A stretch of DNA of 48,970 bases from NCBI GenBank assembly GCA_027575805.1, contig JANBPU010000119.1, forward strand, positions 1-48,970, given 5' to 3'. A program made the position numbers and the translations under genes. Source of the stretch: Mycoemilia scoparia. Taxonomy: Eukaryota > Kickxellomycota > Kickxellomycetes > Kickxellales > Kickxellaceae. The notes under the pieces were generated by a model. It made no database searches. It was given only the letters and a program-made list of their open reading frames with translations, and was not told the DNA's origin. Positions 6,144 through 19,832 of this stretch are shown here, piece after piece (the first letter of the stretch is position 1; the number at the start of each line of letters is the position of its first letter).

Positions 6144-9100
6144 TTACGTATCATAAGCTAGGTTCATACGTAGCCATTGCTCTGCTTCTTCAACACTGAA
6201 TCCCTTTCGGGTGGCATAGTCCTCTATCTGGTCCTTCTGTATCTTGCCAACAGCAAAGTACTCACTCTTGGGATGAGCAAACACGAGAGCACTGACTGAA
6301 GCGCCAGGATGCATCATAAGACTTTCAGTAAGATCGATTCCACTTAGTTCAGTAATCTTGGCAATATCCCACATAGTCTTCTTTTCAGTGTGATCTGGCT
6401 GGCTGGGATAACCTGGTGCAGGTCTGATACCAGTATATTTGATGCTAAGCAATGACGATGTGTCAAGAGCCTCATTTGCCGTATAGCCCCAGATCTCACG
6501 ACGAATGTCTTGATGAAGTTTCTCGGCAAAGGCTTCAGCAAGTCGATCAGCCAATGCTTTGACCATAATGGATGAGTAGTCGTCCTGATCCTTTTCGTAC
6601 TTAGAAGCAAGTTCGTCAGCGCCAAATCCGGCAGTGACGGCCATAAGGCCAATGTAGTCAGGGATTCCAGTATCCATTGGTGCAATAAAATCGGATAGAC
6701 AGAGGTATGGGTCTGTGGCATCACTGTCCTTTTCTGCCTGTTGACGCAACCCATAGAATGTGCCTGCAACTTCGGTTCTGCTTTCATCATGATAAACCGC
6801 AATGTCATCGCCAACAGCGTTGGCAGGATAGATGCCGACAACACCAGATCCGCGAACCAGCTTCTTGTCCAAAAGCTCACGAAGCATGACTTGGGCCTCA
6901 TCGAACAACTTGCGTGCTTCAGCACCAACGGTCTCGTCATTGAACAGCTTGGGGTAACCACGGTTGGGGTATTTGCCTCTGAGCTGCCAGACCTGGAAGA
7001 ATGGGTTCCAGTCAATGAATGGGATAACTTCATTCAAGTCGTAGTCTTCAAGGAGCTTTGTGCCAACAAAGTTGGGTTTGGATGGGATGTTTTCAGTCAA
7101 TGACCAGTCAATCTTGAGCCCAAGCTCGCGTGCTTGTTCAAGAGATAAATACTTGCGATCCTTGAGTGAGTCGTAGTGATCCTCACGAACTTCTTCGTAT
7201 TCTTCATTGATTTCTTCAACAAAGTCCTCCTTGGACTCTTTATCAAGAAGGCTAGATACGACAACAACCGAGCGGGAAGCATCTAGAACATGGATAACAG
7301 GCTCAGTGTAGCGAGGAGAAATCTTTACAGCGGTATGAGTCTTTGAGGTAGTTGCGCCACCGATCAGCAGAGGGATCTTGAGTCCAGCACGCTCCATCTC
7401 CTTGGCAACGTGAATCATTTCATCAAGAGAGGGAGTAATAAGTCCTGAGAGACCAATAACATCAGCCTTCTCTTTAATTGCTGCCTCGATGATCTTTTCA
7501 CATGGTGTCATGACTCCAAGGTCGATTACCTTGTAGTTGTTACAGCCCAACACGACGCCAACGATATTCTTTCCAATGTCGTGCACATCACCCTTGACTG
7601 TAGCCAAGACGACAGTACCATTGTAAATGTCATCATCTTCCTCTAGTCCTTGAGCCTTGAGGTTGGCCAGGCGCTCTTCTTCCATGAATGGAATAAGATG
7701 TGCTACAGCCTTCTTCATGACACGCGCAGACTTAATGACCTGGGGCAAGAACATTTTTCCTGAACCGAATAGATCGCCGACAATCTTCATGCCGTCCATA
7801 AGAGGTCCCTCAATGACATTGAGAGGGCGAGGGAAGCGTTGTTTATCAACACGGGCCTCTTCAGTATCCTCAATAACATACTTGGTAATGCCCTTGATCA
7901 AGGCATATGACAAACGCTTGGCAACACTTTCTGAGCGCCACTCTTCTTCAGCACCCTTGGCACTGACGTCCTTTCCATAACTCTGGGCAATCTCAAGAAG
8001 CTTTTCGGTGGATTGAGGGTCCCGATTCCATACGGCATTTTCACAGACTTCAAGCATGTCCTTAGGGATATCGTCATAAATGGTAAGGAAGCCAGCATTT
8101 ACGATACCCATATCCATACCAGCCTTGATAGCATGATAAAGGAACACAGAGTTCATGGCTTGACGAACACCCTCTTTACCACGGAAAGAGAATGACAAGT
8201 TAGAAACACCTCCACTAACCTTGGCACCAAAAAGTTTCTCCTTAATATCCCTGGTACCATTGATGAACTCTACGGCATAATTGTCGTGCTCTTCCATACC
8301 AGTACAGATGGTCAAAATGTTGGGATCGAAAATGATGTCCTGGGGATTGAAGTTGAGCTTGTCAACAAGAATGCGATAAGATCTTTCACAGATACGGAAC
8401 TTATACTCACGAGTGACAGCCTGGCCAACTTCATCGAAGGCCATAACAACCACAGCAGCACCGTGCCTCTTGATAATCTTTGCCTTCTTTATAAAATCTT
8501 CTTCGCCTTCCTTTAGACTGATACTGTTTACAATACATTTGCCTTGGGCACATTTCAGGCCAGCCTCAACAACAGCAAAGTTTGACGAGTCAACCATAAG
8601 TGGTACACGGGCGACATCTGGTTCAGTAGAAATGAGATTAAGGAACTTGGTCATTGCAGCGATACCATCCAACATACCTTCGTCCATACTAACATCGATG
8701 ACCTGGGCACCATTCTCGACTTGAGCACGGGCAATAGCAAGGGCCTCTTCGTATTCGCCATTGAGTACGTGTCTTGCAAATTTGCGAGAACCAGCAACAT
8801 TACAGCGCTCACCAATGTTCAAGAAATTGGTAGTTTCGTCATAAATAAGGGGCTCCAAACCACTAAGAAGCATACGATTGCGATTCTTTTCATGCAGGTC
8901 TGCAGGAGGAGAACGGGGCTTAAAGTCCTTGCAAGCTTCGTAGATAGCATTAATATGCTCGGGAGTAGTACCACAGCAACCACCAATAATATTGACCAAA
9001 CCTTCCTGAGCAAAGATCTTGACATTCTCTGCCATAGTTTCTGGCGACTCATCGTATTCACCAAAAGTATTTGGAAGACCAGCATTGGGATAGCAAATTA

Positions 9101-10169
9101 CATTCGATGTAGTAAAGTTGGAGATGTTTTGAATGAATGGGCGCATCTGATTAGCACCAAGGGCACAGTTAAGCCCAATGGCCATGGGGTCACTGTGGGC
9201 AACTGACACAACAAATGCCTCGCCAGTCTGACCAGAAAGTGTGCGACCGCTCTGATCTACGATTGTTCCCGAAACGAATACTGGTACCTTCTCGTACCCT
9301 TCTTCATCAAAGATCTCATCGATAGCATAGAGAGCAGCCTTGGCATTAAGGGTATCGAAAATAGTTTCGATCAAAAGAACATCGGCCCCGCCATCCAAAA
9401 GACCACGAATCTGTTCGGCATAAGCATTACTCAGCTCATCAAATGTAACGTTACGATAACTGGGATTTTCGACGCTGGGAGAAATTGAGGCGGTTCTGTT
9501 TGTGGGACCAATGGCACCACAGACAAAGCGAGGACGGTCGGGAGTAAGCGCAGTGACATCTTCGCATGCCTTGCGGGCGATTCTGGCCGCCTCTTTGTTT
9601 AGTTCGTATGCCAAATCTTCCATGGCATAATCGGCTTGAGCAATGCTGGTTGAAGAGAATGTGTTTGTTTCGACAAAATCGGCACCAGCTATCAAGTAGT
9701 TGTAATGGATCTTGTAGACAGAATCTGGGACGGTCAAGACTAGAAGGTCATTGTTTCCCTTGAGATCTTTAGGATGATCCTTAAACCTTTCGCCTATTGA
9801 TAAAAATTGCGATGTTTATACTACGCATTAGAAAAGGACATGATAACAATGCTGTTTCATAGGCATGCGGCTAGTTGGGAATAACAACGTACCTCTAAAG
9901 TCCTCTTCTTTTAGTTTTAGTGCTTGTATCTGGGTGCCCATAGCACCTAAATAGGGTATGAGAAAAATAGCGCGGTTATAGATACAGAGAGCTCTTGAAA
10001 AAAGCCACCAGAACAATTTTCAATCAAGATAATGGTACTAGTAAAAGATCAATACAAAGCACTTACCATCAAGGAACATTATCCTTTCCTTGAGAGCATT
10101 TTCGATATACTTGTTGGCACTGGCACGGTCAGCAAAAGGTGATGGGGTTTTTGCTGCAACTGGAGACAT
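6144..10169 (-). CDS. metH: Cobalamin-dependent methionine synthase (5-methyltetrahydrofolate-homocysteine methyltransferase)
   Basis: Transfers a methyl group from 5-methyl-THF through cobalamin to homocysteine, in the cytosol. There are three exons: 10067-10169, 9893-9946 and 6144-9793. Introns of 120 and 99 bp have GT-AG ends and consistent phase 1, giving 1268 residues (E. coli MetH 1227, human MTR about 1265). The N-terminus begins MSPVAAKT and reaches the [14 protein letters not shown] homocysteine-domain motif only after splicing. Zinc ligands are C262 (GLNCALG) and C325/C326 ([10 protein letters not shown]). The folate domain begins near [16 protein letters not shown]. The B12 domain carries DVHDIG with the axial His at 790. 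The reactivation domain carries RPAPGYP at 1176-1182 and runs to the end. All modules are intact, so the fungus should be able to use cobalamin if it can acquire it. The gene is divergent from IleRS. Confidence 0.96.
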
Positions 10170-11776: not shown

Positions 11777-14700
11777 ATGAGCGGTACACCTGAAGGTACT
11801 TATCTAAATTTTTGCTAAGATAAAAGTATTGCAACAGAAAAGGATAGAAATAGATAACCTCCTTCCATGAACAAATATATATGAATATATGCTTAACAAA
11901 TCGTTGAATTCATATTCAAATACAGGACAATTCTCTTTCCCAAAAGAAGAGGAAAAGGTTCTCGAGTTCTGGCGCGATATTGATGCTTTTAGAACATCAA
12001 TCGAGCTTTCAAAAGGCAGAAAGCCCTTTTCGTTCTATGATGGCCCACCTTTTGCCACTGGTCTTCCTCACTATGGGCATTTGCTAGCCGGTACTATCAA
12101 GGACATTATAACAAGATTTGCACACAACACTGGCCATTATGTTGAGCGTCGGTTCGGTTGGGATTGTGTAGCTGAGGGTACCCCAGTCGGTACTTCCAGA
12201 GGTTATGCTTTGCCTATTGAATATGCTGGTATTACCAATACCCAGATCCTTTCATACAACAGCCAAATGAAAGGATCAGTCTTTGCATCATCAGATATGT
12301 GGTTTGATCAAAAGGTTCGTGAGTGTGTTGAGCTTACCTTGGAAGATGGTCGCAAGATCGTATGTACCCCAGATCACAAGATCCGTACCAATGTCGGTTG
12401 GATGACTGCTGGTGAAATCCCCCTTCTTGACAAATCAGTTCGTATTGTTACTGGCATTGACCTTCCAGCTCACGGTACCGAATTTATCACAGATGATTCT
12501 GAATGCGAATGGAGCTTGTCTGCCGGTGATGTTACGACATTCTGCTGGAATAATGTTGAGGAGCGTGTTAAAACTTCGGCCTTCGCCAGTCTTGTTGGTT
12601 TAATGCATACTGACAAAACATCCATTGTTTATAATGATCAAGAGGCTGCTAGCTCGGCACAGTTGTTCTTTGATCACCAATTCGATGTAATGCAGGCCAC
12701 AGAGGCTTTCTATGAAGTAACTGGTACTATGGCAGAATGCAGCTTCTCAGAAAAGACCGGTCAATATGTGGTTGAAGTTCCTGAATCCTTCATTGCTATT
12801 TACAACTCTGTAATGCTCATGTCTAAGAACGATGCCTCTGGCTTCCCAGAATTCGTTCTTTCCAAGGATTGCCCAGTTGGTGTTGTGCGTGAATTCCTTG
12901 GTGGTCTCTTTGGTGGCAACGGTCTTGCCCCTGCTCTTGTTGAGACCAACAAGCTCAATGGTCCACAATTCCAAAGATCAGCTGCTGATTCCACTGAGCC
13001 ACTGTTTGCTCAGGTTACAGCTCTACTTGAGCGCACTGGAGTTACTGGCTCAACTACTAGCCAAGATGCTGTTACCATTAATGCTAGCTCTGTTACCGAG
13101 TTTGCTTCAAAGATCGGTTACCGCTACTCCGTTACCAAGCAGGCTATCCTTTCTGCTGCCACAGCATACTTCCGCATGAACGACAGCAGTGTCAATGCCT
13201 TAGAATGGCTCAAGTCTGTTGGTGCTGACAAGCTCTTCTCTGAAAAGTCGCTTCCAAAATCTCATGTTCCCACTTTCAGCCTAATGGTCTCGAATCGCGC
13301 CCCAGTTGGCCAAAAGCAGGTCTACGACGTCCGTGTTCCCGCCAACAGCTCATTCTTTGCCAATGGTTTGGCCATGCACAACTGCCACGGTCTTCCAGTT
13401 GAATACGAGATTGATAAATCTCTGGGAATCCAGGGCAAGGAAGATGTGTACAAAATGGGTATTGACAAGTATAACGCCGAATGTAGGTCCATTGTTATGC
13501 GCTACGCCACTGAGTGGAGGTCTACTGTCGAGCGTCTTGGACGTTGGATCGACTTCGACAACGACTACAAGACCCTCAACACTCCATTCATGGAGTCCGA
13601 ATGGTGGGCATTCAAGACCCTCTACGAAAAGGGACAAGTATACCGTGGTGTTCGTGTCATGCCTTACTCTACTGGCTGCGCTACTCCCCTCTCCAACTTC
13701 GAGGCTTCCCAGAACTACAAGGATGTCAATGATCCATCTCTCACTGTGATGTTCCCATTGGTCAGTGACCCAGAAGTCAACATTTTGGCCTGGACCACCA
13801 CCCCCTGGACCTTGCCCAGCAACTTGGCACTCTGCGTTCACCCCAATTTCGAATACATCAAGATCAAGGATGAAGAAAGTGGAAAGATCTTCATCTTGCT
13901 TGAGAAGCGCCTTGATTCTTTGTACAAGAACCCCAAGAAGGCCAAGTTCAAGAAGCTTGCAACCATCCCCGCAGCAGACTTGGTTGGCCTCGAGTACGTT
14001 CCAATGTTCGACTACTATGTACCCGAATTCAAGGGCAAGGCCTGGAAGATCGTAAGTGACGAATATGTCTCGGACGAAGATGGTACTGGTATTGTCCAGC
14101 AGGCTCCAGCCTTTGGCGAGGACGATTTCCGCGTTTGTACCAACTTTGGTATCATTGCTGGTGATCAGCCACCACCATGCCCAGTTGATGACAACGGCTG
14201 TCTCCAGGCTCCAGTCTCCGACTTCCTTGGTATGTATGTCAAAGATGCTGACAAGAAGATCATGAAGCACATTCGTGATGCTGGCCGTATGGCTCGTGAG
14301 GGCAACATCATGCATAGTTACCCATTCTGCTGGCGTTCCGACACTCCTCTCCTTTATCGCACTGTTCCTTCATGGTTCATCCGTGTAAAGGAAATCACTG
14401 AGCGCCTGTTGAAGAATAATTCTGAGACCTACTGGGTTCCAGGACACGTCAAGGAAAAGCGTTTCTCAAACTGGCTTGCCAACGCTCGTGATTGGAATGT
14501 TTCTCGCAACCGTTTCTGGGGAACCCCCATTCCACTCTGGGTCAGCGATGACTTTGAAGAAATTGTCTGCGTCGGATCCATCAAGCAGCTTGAGGAGCTC
14601 ACCGGTGAGACTGATATCACTGACATCCATCGTGACAAGATCGACCACCTAACTATCCCATCCAAGACCGGTCGCGGTGTTCTTAGACGTGTTGAAGAAG

Positions 14701-16364
14701 TATTCGACTGCTGGTTCGAATCTGGCTCTATGCCTTATGCTCAGAAGCACTATCCATTTGAGAACAAGGAAGAATTCGAGGCTACCTTCCCTGCCAACTT
14801 TATCTCTGAGGGTATCGATCAGTGCCGTGGCTGGTTCTATACTCTACTTGTTCTCTCCACTCACCTCTTTGACAAGCCAGCATGGAAGAACCTCATTTCA
14901 AGCGGCCTTGTCTTGGCTGCTGATGGCAAGAAGATGAGTAAGCGTCTCAAGAACTACCCTGATCCCAACCTTGTCATCGAGAAGTATGGTGCTGATGCTC
15001 TACGTTTGTACTTGATCAACTCGCCTGTGGTTCGTGCTGAGACCCTCAAGTTCAAGGAAGAGGGCGTCAAAGACATTGTCTCACGTGTCTTCCTGCCCTG
15101 GTACAACTCCTTGCGCTTCTTTACCACTCAGGTTCAGATGTATAAGCTTGAGACCGGAAAGGACTTCATGTATCACCACGATGCGCCAAAGAGTGAGAAC
15201 GTTATGGACCGTTGGATCTTGGCCTCTACCCAAACATTGATTAGATTTGTCCGTGAAGAGATGAACGCTTACCGCCTCTACACTGTTGTACCTCGTCTCA
15301 TTCTCATGATTGATGAGCTCACCAACTGGTACCTTCGTTTCAACCGCAAGAGACTAAAGGGTGAGGATGGCCCAGAGGAGACCGAGAAGGGTCTCAACAC
15401 TCTTTTCGAGGTTCTCTTTACCATGGCACGTATCATGGCTCCATTCACACCATTCTTGACCGAGAACATGTACCAGACTCTCAAGAAGTTCTTGCGCAAA
15501 GATACGTTTGAGGGTGACTCTCGTAGTATCCACTTCATTCCCTACCCCGATGAGCGCGAGGAATACTTTGACGAGGATATTGAGCGTGCTGTTGCTCGTA
15601 TGCAGACCGTAATTAACCTTGGTCGTTATGTACGTGAAAAGAACACTCTTTCACTCAAGATGCCTCTTCGTGAATTGGTCGTCATTCACTCTGATCCTCA
15701 GTACCTCAAGGATGTTGAGAGTCTTAGCGAGCGTATCAAGGATGAGCTTAATATCAGGAAGTTGACCCTTACATCTAACGAGAACTTCTATGGTGTTAAA
15801 TACATTGCTAAGCCAGACTATCGCGTATTGGGACAGAAGCTCCGCAAGGACCTCGCCACCGTTCGTAAAGGTTTGCTCACCATCTCTTCTGATGCTATCA
15901 AGCAGGCCTTTATTGACAAGTCATTGATTGTCAATGGTATCACTGTTGATGCCGCTGACATTAACATTGTCCGTGACTTTGATCCTGAATCCCTTGACAC
16001 ATCCTTGGTAGAGCAGAAGTACGATAGTGGCAATGATGGCGGCGTTCTTGTTCTTCTATCCACTGCTGAGGACCAGGCCCTCATTGAGGAGAAGCTTGCT
16101 CGTGAAGTTATCAACCGTATCCAGAAACTTCGCAAGAAGTTTGGTATGCAGCCCATGGACAGCGTCTTGTACTACTATAAGCTTCTTGAAGACAAGAATG
16201 ATCAACTAGCCAAGATCTTTGAGAGCCAGAGCGAATTCTTGGTCACCATGCTTAAGCAAGAAATTAATGCTGTTACTAGTGATGATCAGATTGCTAAGGC
16301 TAATGGTGAAGAGCAGGAGGTCAATGGATCCAGATTCCACCTATACTTTTCTCCCCCAAATTAG
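11777..16364 (+). CDS. ILS1: Cytosolic isoleucyl-tRNA synthetase precursor interrupted by an intein
   Basis: Charges tRNA-Ile; class Ia synthetase. The coding start is a 19-nt exon (11777-11795, MSGTPE) joined by a 130-bp intron (11796-11925) to a long exon. The join gives GQFSFPKEEEKVLEFW, which fits the start of yeast ILS1. Without splicing the downstream frame opens with a non-homologous leader. The precursor is 1485 residues, and removing the 406-residue intein leaves 1079, close to yeast ILS1 (1072). Precursor landmarks are the HIGH-type HYGH (55-58), the GWD|CHGLPVE motif split by the intein (87-492), the editing-domain motif TTTPWTLPSN, KMSKR (1009-1013) and the C-terminal anticodon-binding region (TNWYLRFNR). 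Only one cytosolic-type copy is visible and it has no obvious mitochondrial presequence, so viability should depend on protein splicing. Confidence 0.97.
12165..13382 (+). mobile_element. Intein with LAGLIDADG-type endonuclease region, inserted in IleRS
   Basis: A 406-residue in-frame insertion between Asp and Cys of the GWDCHGLP motif. Block A starts with Cys1 (CVAEGTPVGTSRGY). Block B is CTPDHKI with T68 and H71 of the intein. Block F/G is KQVYDVRVP followed by SFFANGLAMHN, ending in His-Asn with the extein Cys as +1 nucleophile, the canonical set for class 1 splicing. Between the splicing blocks lie two LAGLIDADG-like motifs about 102 residues apart: LVGLMHTDK (catalytic-position Asp at intein residue 150) and LGGLFGGNG (Asn at 252). 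The frame is uninterrupted over 1218 nt and no spliceosomal intron boundaries match the extein junction. Splicing competence looks intact; homing activity looks doubtful. Confidence 0.95.
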
Positions 16365-18059: not shown

Positions 18060-19832
18060 ATGAAGTACGTCGCATTGCCCTTTCTGGTGGCCCTTGCCTC
18101 ACTTTCAGGACAAGTAGACTCCTATGCTGTCCAGATTCCACAGCCACCCCAAGCACCTGGATATGTGGTTCAGAATCCCCAGCCCCAGGTACCCGGACCT
18201 GTTCTCCAGCCATCCAGCGACCCAGTCCAGAAGCCAGCATATGACACTGCGCCTCAAGTGACTCTACCTACTATTCCACCTGCTCCCCAATACACTGCTC
18301 CTAGCATCACTATTCCTACTGTAGAGATCCCCACTTTGACCTCTAGCGATTGCGAAACATCGACCACCATCCCTACTAGCGAGTGCGAAGCACCAAGCAC
18401 TATCACTAAGATCCAGACAAAGCCCATCTATTCCACTGTCGTTGTTCCTAAAGGCTTTACAAAAACTATTTACAAAACAGCTCTTACTACCGACTATGTT
18501 ACAGTCGAGCCTGATTATGTTCCCACTGCTATCGTTGTCACGGTTACTAAACATAAAACCAAGACCAAGACTGTCACGAAGACAATCAAAGCAAAGCCTA
18601 CCGGGGAACCTAAGAATGAAAGCACTGGTAGGAAACCCAAGGACCCAAAGGACCCTGAAGATGGTGATGCTGGCAAGAAGCCTGGCGATCCAAAGAAACC
18701 TACAGAAAGCAGCTCCAGTAGCTCCAGTAGCTCCAGTAGCAATAGTAATAGCAGAAGTGGCTCATCAGGAGATCCCTATGAAGATGACCCTGGTGATCCT
18801 GAAAACACAAATCTTGGCAGGGATCCCAAGTCAAACAGCGGTGACCCTAAAAAGGACCCGAAAGATCCCAAGGATAAGGATCCTGAATACAGTGACCCTG
18901 AAGATACCAACCTTGGTAGAGACCCTGAATACAGTGACCCTGAAGATACCAACCTTGGTAGAGACCCTGGATACGAGGACCCTGGATCTCTATTCACCGA
19001 TTGCAATCCTGATGACTATGATGATGACGGTGATGATGACAATCCAGACAACTTCGAGGTCGAGTACTATTATGAAGAGTGTGATGGTGATATGGACCCA
19101 GAAGATGCTACCACAGGAGGTCCTGGCGGCTGTAATCCAAATAGCCCTAACTACCCCAACTGTTTGAACAATAACAACAACGGTGGCTGTGCTCCTGACA
19201 GCCCCAACTACCCTGACTGCTTGAATGGTAGGAATAATGGTGGCAGATGCAGTCCAGGCAGTCCCAACTATCCCGATTGTCTAAATGGCGGTAATAGCAA
19301 TGGCAGATGCAACCCAGGCAGTCCCAACTATCCCGATTGTCTAAATGACGGTAATAGCAATGGCAGATGCAATCCAGGCAGTCCCAACTATCCTGACTGC
19401 TTGGATAGCTATAACAACGGTGGGTGCGATCCAAATGACCCTTACTGTAACGATGCACATGCCAATGGAATGCATGGTGGTATTGGCGATGAAGACTGTG
19501 AGACTCCTATTTCTGTACCGCCTACATACAAGACTACTCCTGCACCTTATCAAACCAAAAAGCCAGGCTACCAGGTCAAGAAACCATCCTACCAGATCAA
19601 CAAACCAGGTTACCAGGTTAAGAAGCCATCTTATCAGGTCAAGAAGCCTGTTAGCAAGCCCAAATTATGCCTCAAGCGCAGATACCGTCGTGTCAAGAAG
19701 CCATCTAAGTCCAAGAAGGGTTGCCCAACTCCCTCAAAGACCAATAAGCCAACTCCTAAGCCTACCGGTGGCAATAAGGACCCCAAGCCTACTAAAGTCA
19801 ATACTGCTGCTTACCTGACCATGAATTTCTGA
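18060..19832 (+). CDS. Secreted low-complexity protein with Cys-repeat array and Tyr/Lys-rich tail
   Basis: A single-exon protein of 590 residues. It starts with a signal peptide (MKYVALPFLVALASLSGQVDS). Segments in order are: a Pro/Gln-rich region (about 25-90); a Thr/Lys-rich part (about 95-190); a Ser run (216-227); DP/PED repeats with an exact 42-nt tandem duplication (NLGRDPEYSDPEDT); an acidic Asp/Glu stretch (315-350); five copies of a Cys module C-x2-[NG]SPNY-P-x-CL with a period of 19-20 residues (358-447); and a tail of KPGYQVKKPSYQ repeats (about 490-530) ending basic. There is no membrane anchor or clear GPI signal at the C-terminus. The composition suggests a cell-wall or extracellular matrix protein that could be cross-linked through Tyr, Lys and Cys. 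I do not recognise a family. Confidence 0.85.
   Translation: MKYVALPFLVALASLSGQVDSYAVQIPQPPQAPGYVVQNPQPQVPGPVLQPSSDPVQKPAYDTAPQVTLPTIPPAPQYTAPSITIPTVEIPTLTSSDCETSTTIPTSECEAPSTITKIQTKPIYSTVVVPKGFTKTIYKTALTTDYVTVEPDYVPTAIVVTVTKHKTKTKTVTKTIKAKPTGEPKNESTGRKPKDPKDPEDGDAGKKPGDPKKPTESSSSSSSSSSSNSNSRSGSSGDPYEDDPGDPENTNLGRDPKSNSGDPKKDPKDPKDKDPEYSDPEDTNLGRDPEYSDPEDTNLGRDPGYEDPGSLFTDCNPDDYDDDGDDDNPDNFEVEYYYEECDGDMDPEDATTGGPGGCNPNSPNYPNCLNNNNNGGCAPDSPNYPDCLNGRNNGGRCSPGSPNYPDCLNGGNSNGRCNPGSPNYPDCLNDGNSNGRCNPGSPNYPDCLDSYNNGGCDPNDPYCNDAHANGMHGGIGDEDCETPISVPPTYKTTPAPYQTKKPGYQVKKPSYQINKPGYQVKKPSYQVKKPVSKPKLCLKRRYRRVKKPSKSKKGCPTPSKTNKPTPKPTGGNKDPKPTKVNTAAYLTMNF
18882..18965 (+). repeat. Exact 42-nt tandem duplication inside the secreted-protein gene
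   Basis: Two back-to-back copies of a 42-nt unit (first at about 18882-18923) encode the 14-residue acidic unit PEYSDPEDTNLGRD. The last bases of the second copy diverge from the expected continuation. Confidence 0.8.
19134..19420 (+). repeat. Cys-module array with 60-nt period
   Basis: Five tandem units encode the C..GSPNYPDCLN module. Two neighbouring units (about 19257-19316 and 19317-19376) are nearly identical at DNA level, differing at two positions I can see. This indicates recent unequal expansion. Confidence 0.8.

Follow-up and report, generated by a model that had tools for sequence, protein, structure and literature searches.

The gene for cytosolic isoleucyl-tRNA synthetase (IleRS) in the fungus Mycoemilia scoparia (Kickxellales, Kickxellomycota) poses a simple question: what are the 406 codons that lie, in frame, between the two halves of a conserved catalytic-domain motif? 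The gene is located on the window that we analyzed, a 48,970-nucleotide stretch corresponding to contig C23 of the M. scoparia assembly (21.16 Mb in 466 contigs). Sequence comparisons lead us to conclude that the insert, at 12165..13382, is very probably a class 1 cis-splicing intein, residing in the sole gene for a cytosolic IleRS that the assembly yielded.

The insert and its host gene

All features of the gene lie on the plus strand. A short first exon (11777..11795; MSGTPEG...), whose sequence matches the deposited protein P0028, is followed near the start of the gene by a small GT-AG spliceosomal intron (∼11796..11925; gt...ag), and joining the exons across this intron yields the N-terminus of P0028. 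The N-extein (11926..12164) contains the sequence PHYGH, which we take to be a HIGH-type motif, and ends in ...RRFGWD, the 40 residues before the junction being identical to those in the IleRS of Spiromyces aspiralis. The insert begins after IleRS residue 86 and comprises 1218 bases, or 406 stop-free codons; the C-extein (13383..16364), which starts with the Cys+1 of CHGLPVEYE, then supplies the remainder of the enzyme and the stop codon. The open frame itself extends from an ATG at 11889, within the small intron, to 16364. The product of 11777-16364 is publicly deposited as an isoleucine--tRNA ligase of 1485 residues (P0028), with precomputed domains that include PF14890, and this precursor scores 927.5 bits against the ileS profile TIGR00392.

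An earlier note on this DNA had placed a 406-residue in-frame insert between GWD and CHGLPVEYE at 12165-13382, and its coordinates, length, and junctions proved exact. Its expectation that removal of the insert would leave 1079 residues was also borne out: the joined exteins have this length and are 79% identical to the S. aspiralis IleRS, with an alignment that is gap-free at the junction as displayed. Among the best 120 of 8000 matches, the insertion site is empty in 116 of the 119 other IleRS sequences, which read GWD or GFD, then C, T, or V, and then HGLP or HGVP. The remaining three received no read-through call, two of them starting downstream of the motif and one (P0152) being a fused model. 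Contamination was rejected as a source of the insert, which sits in a fungal IleRS whose closest relative among the matches listed is that of the fungus Spiromyces.

A chance open frame was ruled out by shuffling and by codon usage. When the insert was shuffled by mononucleotides, an open frame survived in 0 of 20,000 trials, and its codon usage agrees with that of the C-extein in one frame alone (log-likelihood ratio of +90, against ratios below zero in the five others). The third-position GC content of the insert is lower than that of the C-extein (0.43 versus 0.57), which counts against the intein reading.

A further candidate was an RNA intron, spliceosomal or of another kind, that is open by chance and removed from the mRNA. 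The IleRS gene does contain a short GT-AG intron elsewhere, and 1218 bases is a possible intron length. However, no GT-AG, GC-AG, or AT-AC excision restores GWD-CHGLP, which excludes an ordinary intron; the motif is restored only by excisions bordered by TG..AC, GT..CT, or TG..TG. The insert is, moreover, coding-like in one frame only, matches intein profiles and solved inteins, and has full-length intein relatives on bacterial and archaeal contigs, whereas spliceosomal introns are absent from bacteria and archaea. Given these borders, the codon usage, and the matches to profiles, we rule out an RNA intron, to which we give next to no chance. Scans of the window for tRNAs and Rfam families found nothing.

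Splicing residues and the predicted reaction

For the intein that we propose instead, the curated profiles of both termini were passed, namely intein_Nterm (NCBIfam TIGR01445; 27.8 bits, cut-off 24.5) and intein_Cterm (NCBIfam TIGR01443; 19.1 bits, cut-off 15.6). Pfam PF14890 (Intein_splicing), in contrast, fell narrowly below its cut-off (34.5 versus 35.8 bits, E = 2.3e-8), which counts against the assignment, and its match at the IleRS locus in the six-frame genome search was weak (15.2 bits, at the C-terminal end). Of the Hint and LAGLIDADG profile searches that the earlier note had suggested as a check, the one with PF14528 (LAGLIDADG_3) had no match at the IleRS locus, its three matches in the assembly all lying elsewhere, and this too counts against the assignment.

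Among solved structures, the best match of a single-sequence search is the Spl DnaX mini-intein (4.1e-8). A profile built from four same-site IleRS inteins, that of Mycoemilia and the environmental ones described below, matched 37 PDB chains at E <= 0.01, 17 of which are named as inteins or as the intein endonuclease PI-MtuI; the remaining 20 carry host names, DnaE and DnaB among them, and we presume that they are intein structures as well.

The full set of splicing residues is present in the insert: Cys1, Thr68, His71, Asp388, the terminal His405-Asn406 pair, and, directly following it, Cys+1. Thr68 and His71 belong to block B (TPDH; 12366..12377) in the N-terminal splicing half, while Asp388, His405, and Asn406 belong to the C-terminal splicing half with blocks F and G (QVYDVRVP...FFANGLAMHN; 13311..13382), the part recognized by the intein_Cterm profile. 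Conservation was counted over a set of 136 related inteins, each 300-800 residues long and three of them encoded in the Mycoemilia genome. Thr68, His71, and Asp388 are each present in 136 of 136, His405 in 131, and Asn406 in 135; Cys1 also reaches 136 of 136, a count that is partly a matter of construction, because the extraction script favored Cys starts, moving each intein start to a nearby Cys or else to Ser or Ala.

The Cys start, the TPDH block B, and the ANGLAMHN end followed by Cys, all reported earlier, are thus present. The in-frame position with a restorable host, the terminal and block B residues, and the curated profiles (PF14890 excepted) argue for membership in class 1, and a Hint fold is predicted for the insert from profiles and motifs. 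The central proposal of the earlier note, an intein that splits GWD/CHGLP in a nuclear fungal IleRS, gains support from these profiles and motifs and from the site that is empty in nearly all of the IleRS sequences compared.

The reaction that we envisage is the one established for class 1 inteins in general. The 1485-residue precursor would be translated whole, intein included, after which (i) Cys1 would undergo an N-S acyl shift, aided by Thr68 and His71 of block B; (ii) the N-extein would pass to Cys+1; (iii) Asn406 would cyclize with the help of His405; and (iv) an S-N shift would leave the exteins joined as ...FGWD-CHGLPVEYE... in the 1079-residue IleRS, with the intein released. The ligated tryptic peptide across the joined junction would be FGWDCHGLPVEYEIDK, and the predicted sizes are estimated at ∼165 kDa for the precursor, ∼120 kDa for the spliced IleRS, and ∼44 kDa for the free intein.

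The aspartate at the junction corresponds to residue 88 of the Spiromyces enzyme and approximately to Asp85 of 1ile, if the two numberings are aligned where the match starts (query 12, chain 9) and gaps are ignored. We take 1ile to be the Thermus IleRS, whose Asp85 presumably binds the amino group of isoleucine. An insert at this position interrupts a conserved catalytic-domain motif; the precursor is therefore expected to lack activity until it is spliced, and growth is expected to depend on splicing. Furthermore, a search of the assembly for another complete cytosolic IleRS gave only seven matches outside this gene, all partial and 24-47% identical, so splicing should be required for life.

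The endonuclease region and the origin of the intein

The middle of the insert is a LAGLIDADG domain in a seemingly decayed state, having lost conserved residues of its catalytic motifs; this adds to the earlier note, which left decay unmentioned. In block C (LVGLMHTDKTS; 12591..12623), the first catalytic aspartate, Asp150, is retained (Asp in 129 of 136 relatives), and the adjoining glycine, present in 128 of the 136, is replaced by lysine (G151K). In block E (EFLGGLFGGNG; 12891..12923), asparagine takes the place of an aspartate that 129 of the 136 relatives possess (D252N). The acidic residues in both blocks C and E that mark an active LAGLIDADG homing endonuclease are hence not both present. 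The end branch of the IleRS intein measures 2.25 in the endonuclease tree (median 0.64) and 0.78 in the splicing-domain tree (median 0.40), and these single-branch figures, which involve no selection test, are in line with a stronger constraint on splicing than on cutting. Given the loss of catalytic-motif residues, the intein has very likely ceased to be mobile; it may persist because precise loss is rare.

The decay of the endonuclease half, which seems to place the element beyond its mobile phase, could also be taken to mean that splicing has been lost, or has been reduced to cleavage, with the fungus depending on a different IleRS or on the two halves as separate proteins. The splicing residues, however, are retained while the endonuclease diverges, and the assembly yielded no other complete cytosolic enzyme on which the fungus could rely, so that we consider a loss of splicing highly improbable. 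Another reading of the retention is conditional splicing, in which the Cys1/Cys+1 chemistry would gate IleRS by redox, metal, or temperature, and the intein would be kept as a switch of translation. The insert does lie inside a conserved catalytic-domain motif and is seemingly immobile yet retained, and the intein in a PKC-like kinase of the same genome is also retained, inside TF-CGTPEF; but the rarity of exact deletion also explains retention, and we hold such a switch to be very unlikely.

The intein that we favor, one that splices and very likely no longer moves, has relatives in other IleRS genes. Among the best 120 of 231 matches, at least five environmental IleRS sequences carry related inteins. 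In three of them (P0038, P0055, and P0120), the intein occupies the same site before CHGLP (site-a), and these three share with the Mycoemilia intein the insertion point, Cys1, and the C-terminal His-Asn followed by Cys, with a length of 432-436 residues versus 406. They differ from it in possessing both endonuclease aspartates, and their host exteins are 38-42% identical to those of Mycoemilia; moreover, they form a clade apart from the Mycoemilia intein in free trees, although a union with it is not rejected. The other two (P0048 and P0078) carry related but longer inteins (557 and 546 residues) at a different site, between FD and CWFESG, and have exteins that are 50-52% identical to those of Mycoemilia.

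Also among these best 120 of 231 matches are P0032, P0034, P0052, and P0066, environmental proteins, several of eukaryotic type, with inteins of the same family. Going by their Pfam accessions, we assume this set to comprise an XRN1-type protein, a protein kinase with two inteins, a protein of the carbamoyl-phosphate-synthase type, and a myosin.

For the trees, 138 inteins (seven from Mycoemilia) were reduced to 80 at 70% identity, the RPB2_2, AFG3, and YME1 inteins being omitted as too distant, and AU tests were run on a 32-row subset. One origin that these trees bear on is an allelic site-a lineage, shared with P0038, P0055, and P0120, that reached the Mycoemilia IleRS by transfer rather than by the ectopic jump of another intein. 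The identical insertion point and the similar length speak for it, and forcing the four site-a inteins together was rejected neither for the whole length (AU p of 0.22) nor for the Hint (0.194) or endonuclease (0.363) parts. Against it, the free trees (77-row, 32-row, and Hint) place the Mycoemilia intein outside the well-supported environmental trio, and it pairs instead with the myosin-like intein of P0066, at 95/81 in the 77-row tree, in which the bootstrap is unsettled, and at 88/88 in the Hint tree. With the same unsettled bootstrap, the 77-row tree has this pair adjoining the aconitase inteins (98/93). In the 32-row whole-length tree, the placement of the Mycoemilia intein is unsettled. 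The endonuclease tree gives it a branch flagged for its length, and the rows closest to it by path are there aconitase inteins. We therefore advance allelic transfer tentatively, as a possible but somewhat doubtful origin. A jump of the PKC-like intein of the same genome into IleRS is not favored; kinship of the two inteins was not rejected (AU p of 0.359). The trees are compatible with allelic transfer and also with a separate jump of another intein into this site, and each is possible.

The aconitase inteins of bacteria and archaea, located between GYGCTT and CIGNSGPL (L045-L053, P0054, P0059, and others), are whole-length relatives with 27-33% identity in the best segments. They differ from the IleRS intein in being prokaryotic and in residing in another host gene, and both endonuclease aspartates are present in the two that were compared. 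A search of bacterial and archaeal contigs returned 12 loci, of which nine are aconitase by motif (from Ktedonobacteria, Pyrinomonadaceae, Omnitrophota, Nitrososphaerales, and others) and three are without motif assignment; the IleRS motif is found in none of these 12. A viral scan with three environmental IleRS sequences returned four loci. Among these, L037 matches across IleRS, with no HGLP seen by regular expression and with a lone intein-end match on the opposite strand that we took as chance, while intein ends flanked by RPB2-type sequence were seen in L039 and L040. In the 57 viral loci of a scan with four inteins and the 12 prokaryotic loci, 69 in total, neither an IleRS junction nor a GWD-HGLP motif came to light.

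Further inteins in the genome and known nuclear hosts

Profile and protein searches identified at least seven inteins in the Mycoemilia assembly, namely those in IleRS, in a PKC-like kinase, in an AFG3-like and a YME1-like protease, and three in RPB2. This number is a lower bound, coming from six-frame searches only, and the names of the six further hosts were read from the sequences rather than from annotation. The PKC-like intein (524 residues; C212:88674-90245, equivalent to L032:2675-4246) lies between TF and CGTPEF of the sequence CGTPEFMAPE, with C1-type zinc fingers upstream, and has Ser and Asn at the two endonuclease catalytic columns. The AFG3-like intein (354 residues; C90:134108-135169, L033) lies between GVGA and SRVRDLF, and the YME1-like intein (366 residues; C378:9936-11033, L034) between GVGA and SRIRQLF. 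Both have Ser1 and Ser+1, are 45-48% identical, and occupy the same site of related AAA proteases; this likeness and the shared site point to spread between paralogues or to an old shared insertion.

The three RPB2 inteins lie within one frame on contig C1 (572794-578247; L031) and have 446 residues (C1:576910-578247), 325 residues (the middle one; C1:574210-575184), and 440 residues (C1:572794-574113). PF14890 is above its cut-off in five of the six further inteins. The 325-residue RPB2 insert falls below all curated cut-offs (intein_Nterm scores of 19.3 and 22.2 versus 24.5), and we call it a putative intein from its termini (Cys1, Asn, and Ser+1) and its in-frame place. Both catalytic aspartates are kept in none of the seven inteins, the alignment being loose at these positions for the AFG3-like, YME1-like, and 325-residue RPB2 inteins.

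Green et al. 2018 (PMC5784728) describe nuclear inteins as "scarce" and give, as the most common hosts, Prp8, VMA1, RNA polymerase subunits, ThrRS, GLT, CHS, and eIF5B. Neither IleRS nor the PKC-like kinase figures in Table 1 ("most common inteins") of that paper, which gives its full host list in supplements. In the accessible text of other sources, "isoleuc" has no match in the review PMC7765530, a Candida review (PMC5056185) has IleRS as a drug target only, and PMC8778642 treats inteins in general terms only. We found no report of an IleRS intein in the open-access literature that we searched, and Mycoemilia is unnamed in the accessible portions of the listed intein literature from 2024. 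The suggestion of a new or little-described site, made in the earlier note, consequently holds in part: it agrees with Table 1 of PMC5784728, but same-site inteins are present in three deposited environmental IleRS sequences, which makes IleRS as an intein host apparently new for a named fungus and not for sequence space.

Among the described nuclear inteins, that of ThrRS in Saccharomycotina also resides in the catalytic core domain of an aminoacyl-tRNA synthetase, but in a class II enzyme, in another gene and site, and in another fungal group (PMC5784728, PMC5056185). The RPB2 inteins of Salmacisia resemble the IleRS intein in being nuclear and fungal, with a Cys start and an Asn end, and differ from it in their host gene, of which the Mycoemilia copy carries three inteins (PMC10849329). 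Published examples of several inteins per genome are two in Rhizophagus and three in Fusarium fujikuroi (PMC5784728) and three in Salmacisia, where more than one is called rare (PMC10849329).

The IleRS gene thus adds an intein host in which splicing presumably takes place inside the catalytic domain of an enzyme that all protein synthesis needs. The genome-wide set matters more, with at least seven inteins, none possessing both endonuclease aspartates, against the two and three of these published examples (PMC5784728, PMC10849329), and Mycoemilia offers a natural case for how inteins persist once mobility is lost. The environmental relatives, in turn, suggest a wider variety of intein hosts among uncultured microbes, some of them apparently eukaryotes, than the table of PMC5784728 contains. 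A broader proposition would be that the intein load of Mycoemilia (at least seven, with endonucleases not intact, in conserved stretches of essential or signaling proteins) exceeds that of any nuclear genome in the literature compared and that some of these inteins, including that of IleRS, are kept because conditional splicing gates enzyme activity post-translationally. Taken as a whole, we regard this proposition as very unlikely.

Three further observations concern the window and the genome. On another contig, an LAGLIDADG_3 match above the cut-off (26.5 bits) lies on the minus strand at C22:12042-12239, within a 5187-residue open frame. In the window, the plus strand at 18060-19832 holds a 590-residue frame that is rich in Pro, Lys, Asp, and repeats and has no Pfam match, and the minus strand at 6144-9623 encodes a cobalamin-dependent methionine synthase (Met_synt_B12 and B12-binding domains), an enzyme that appears to be unusual among fungi.
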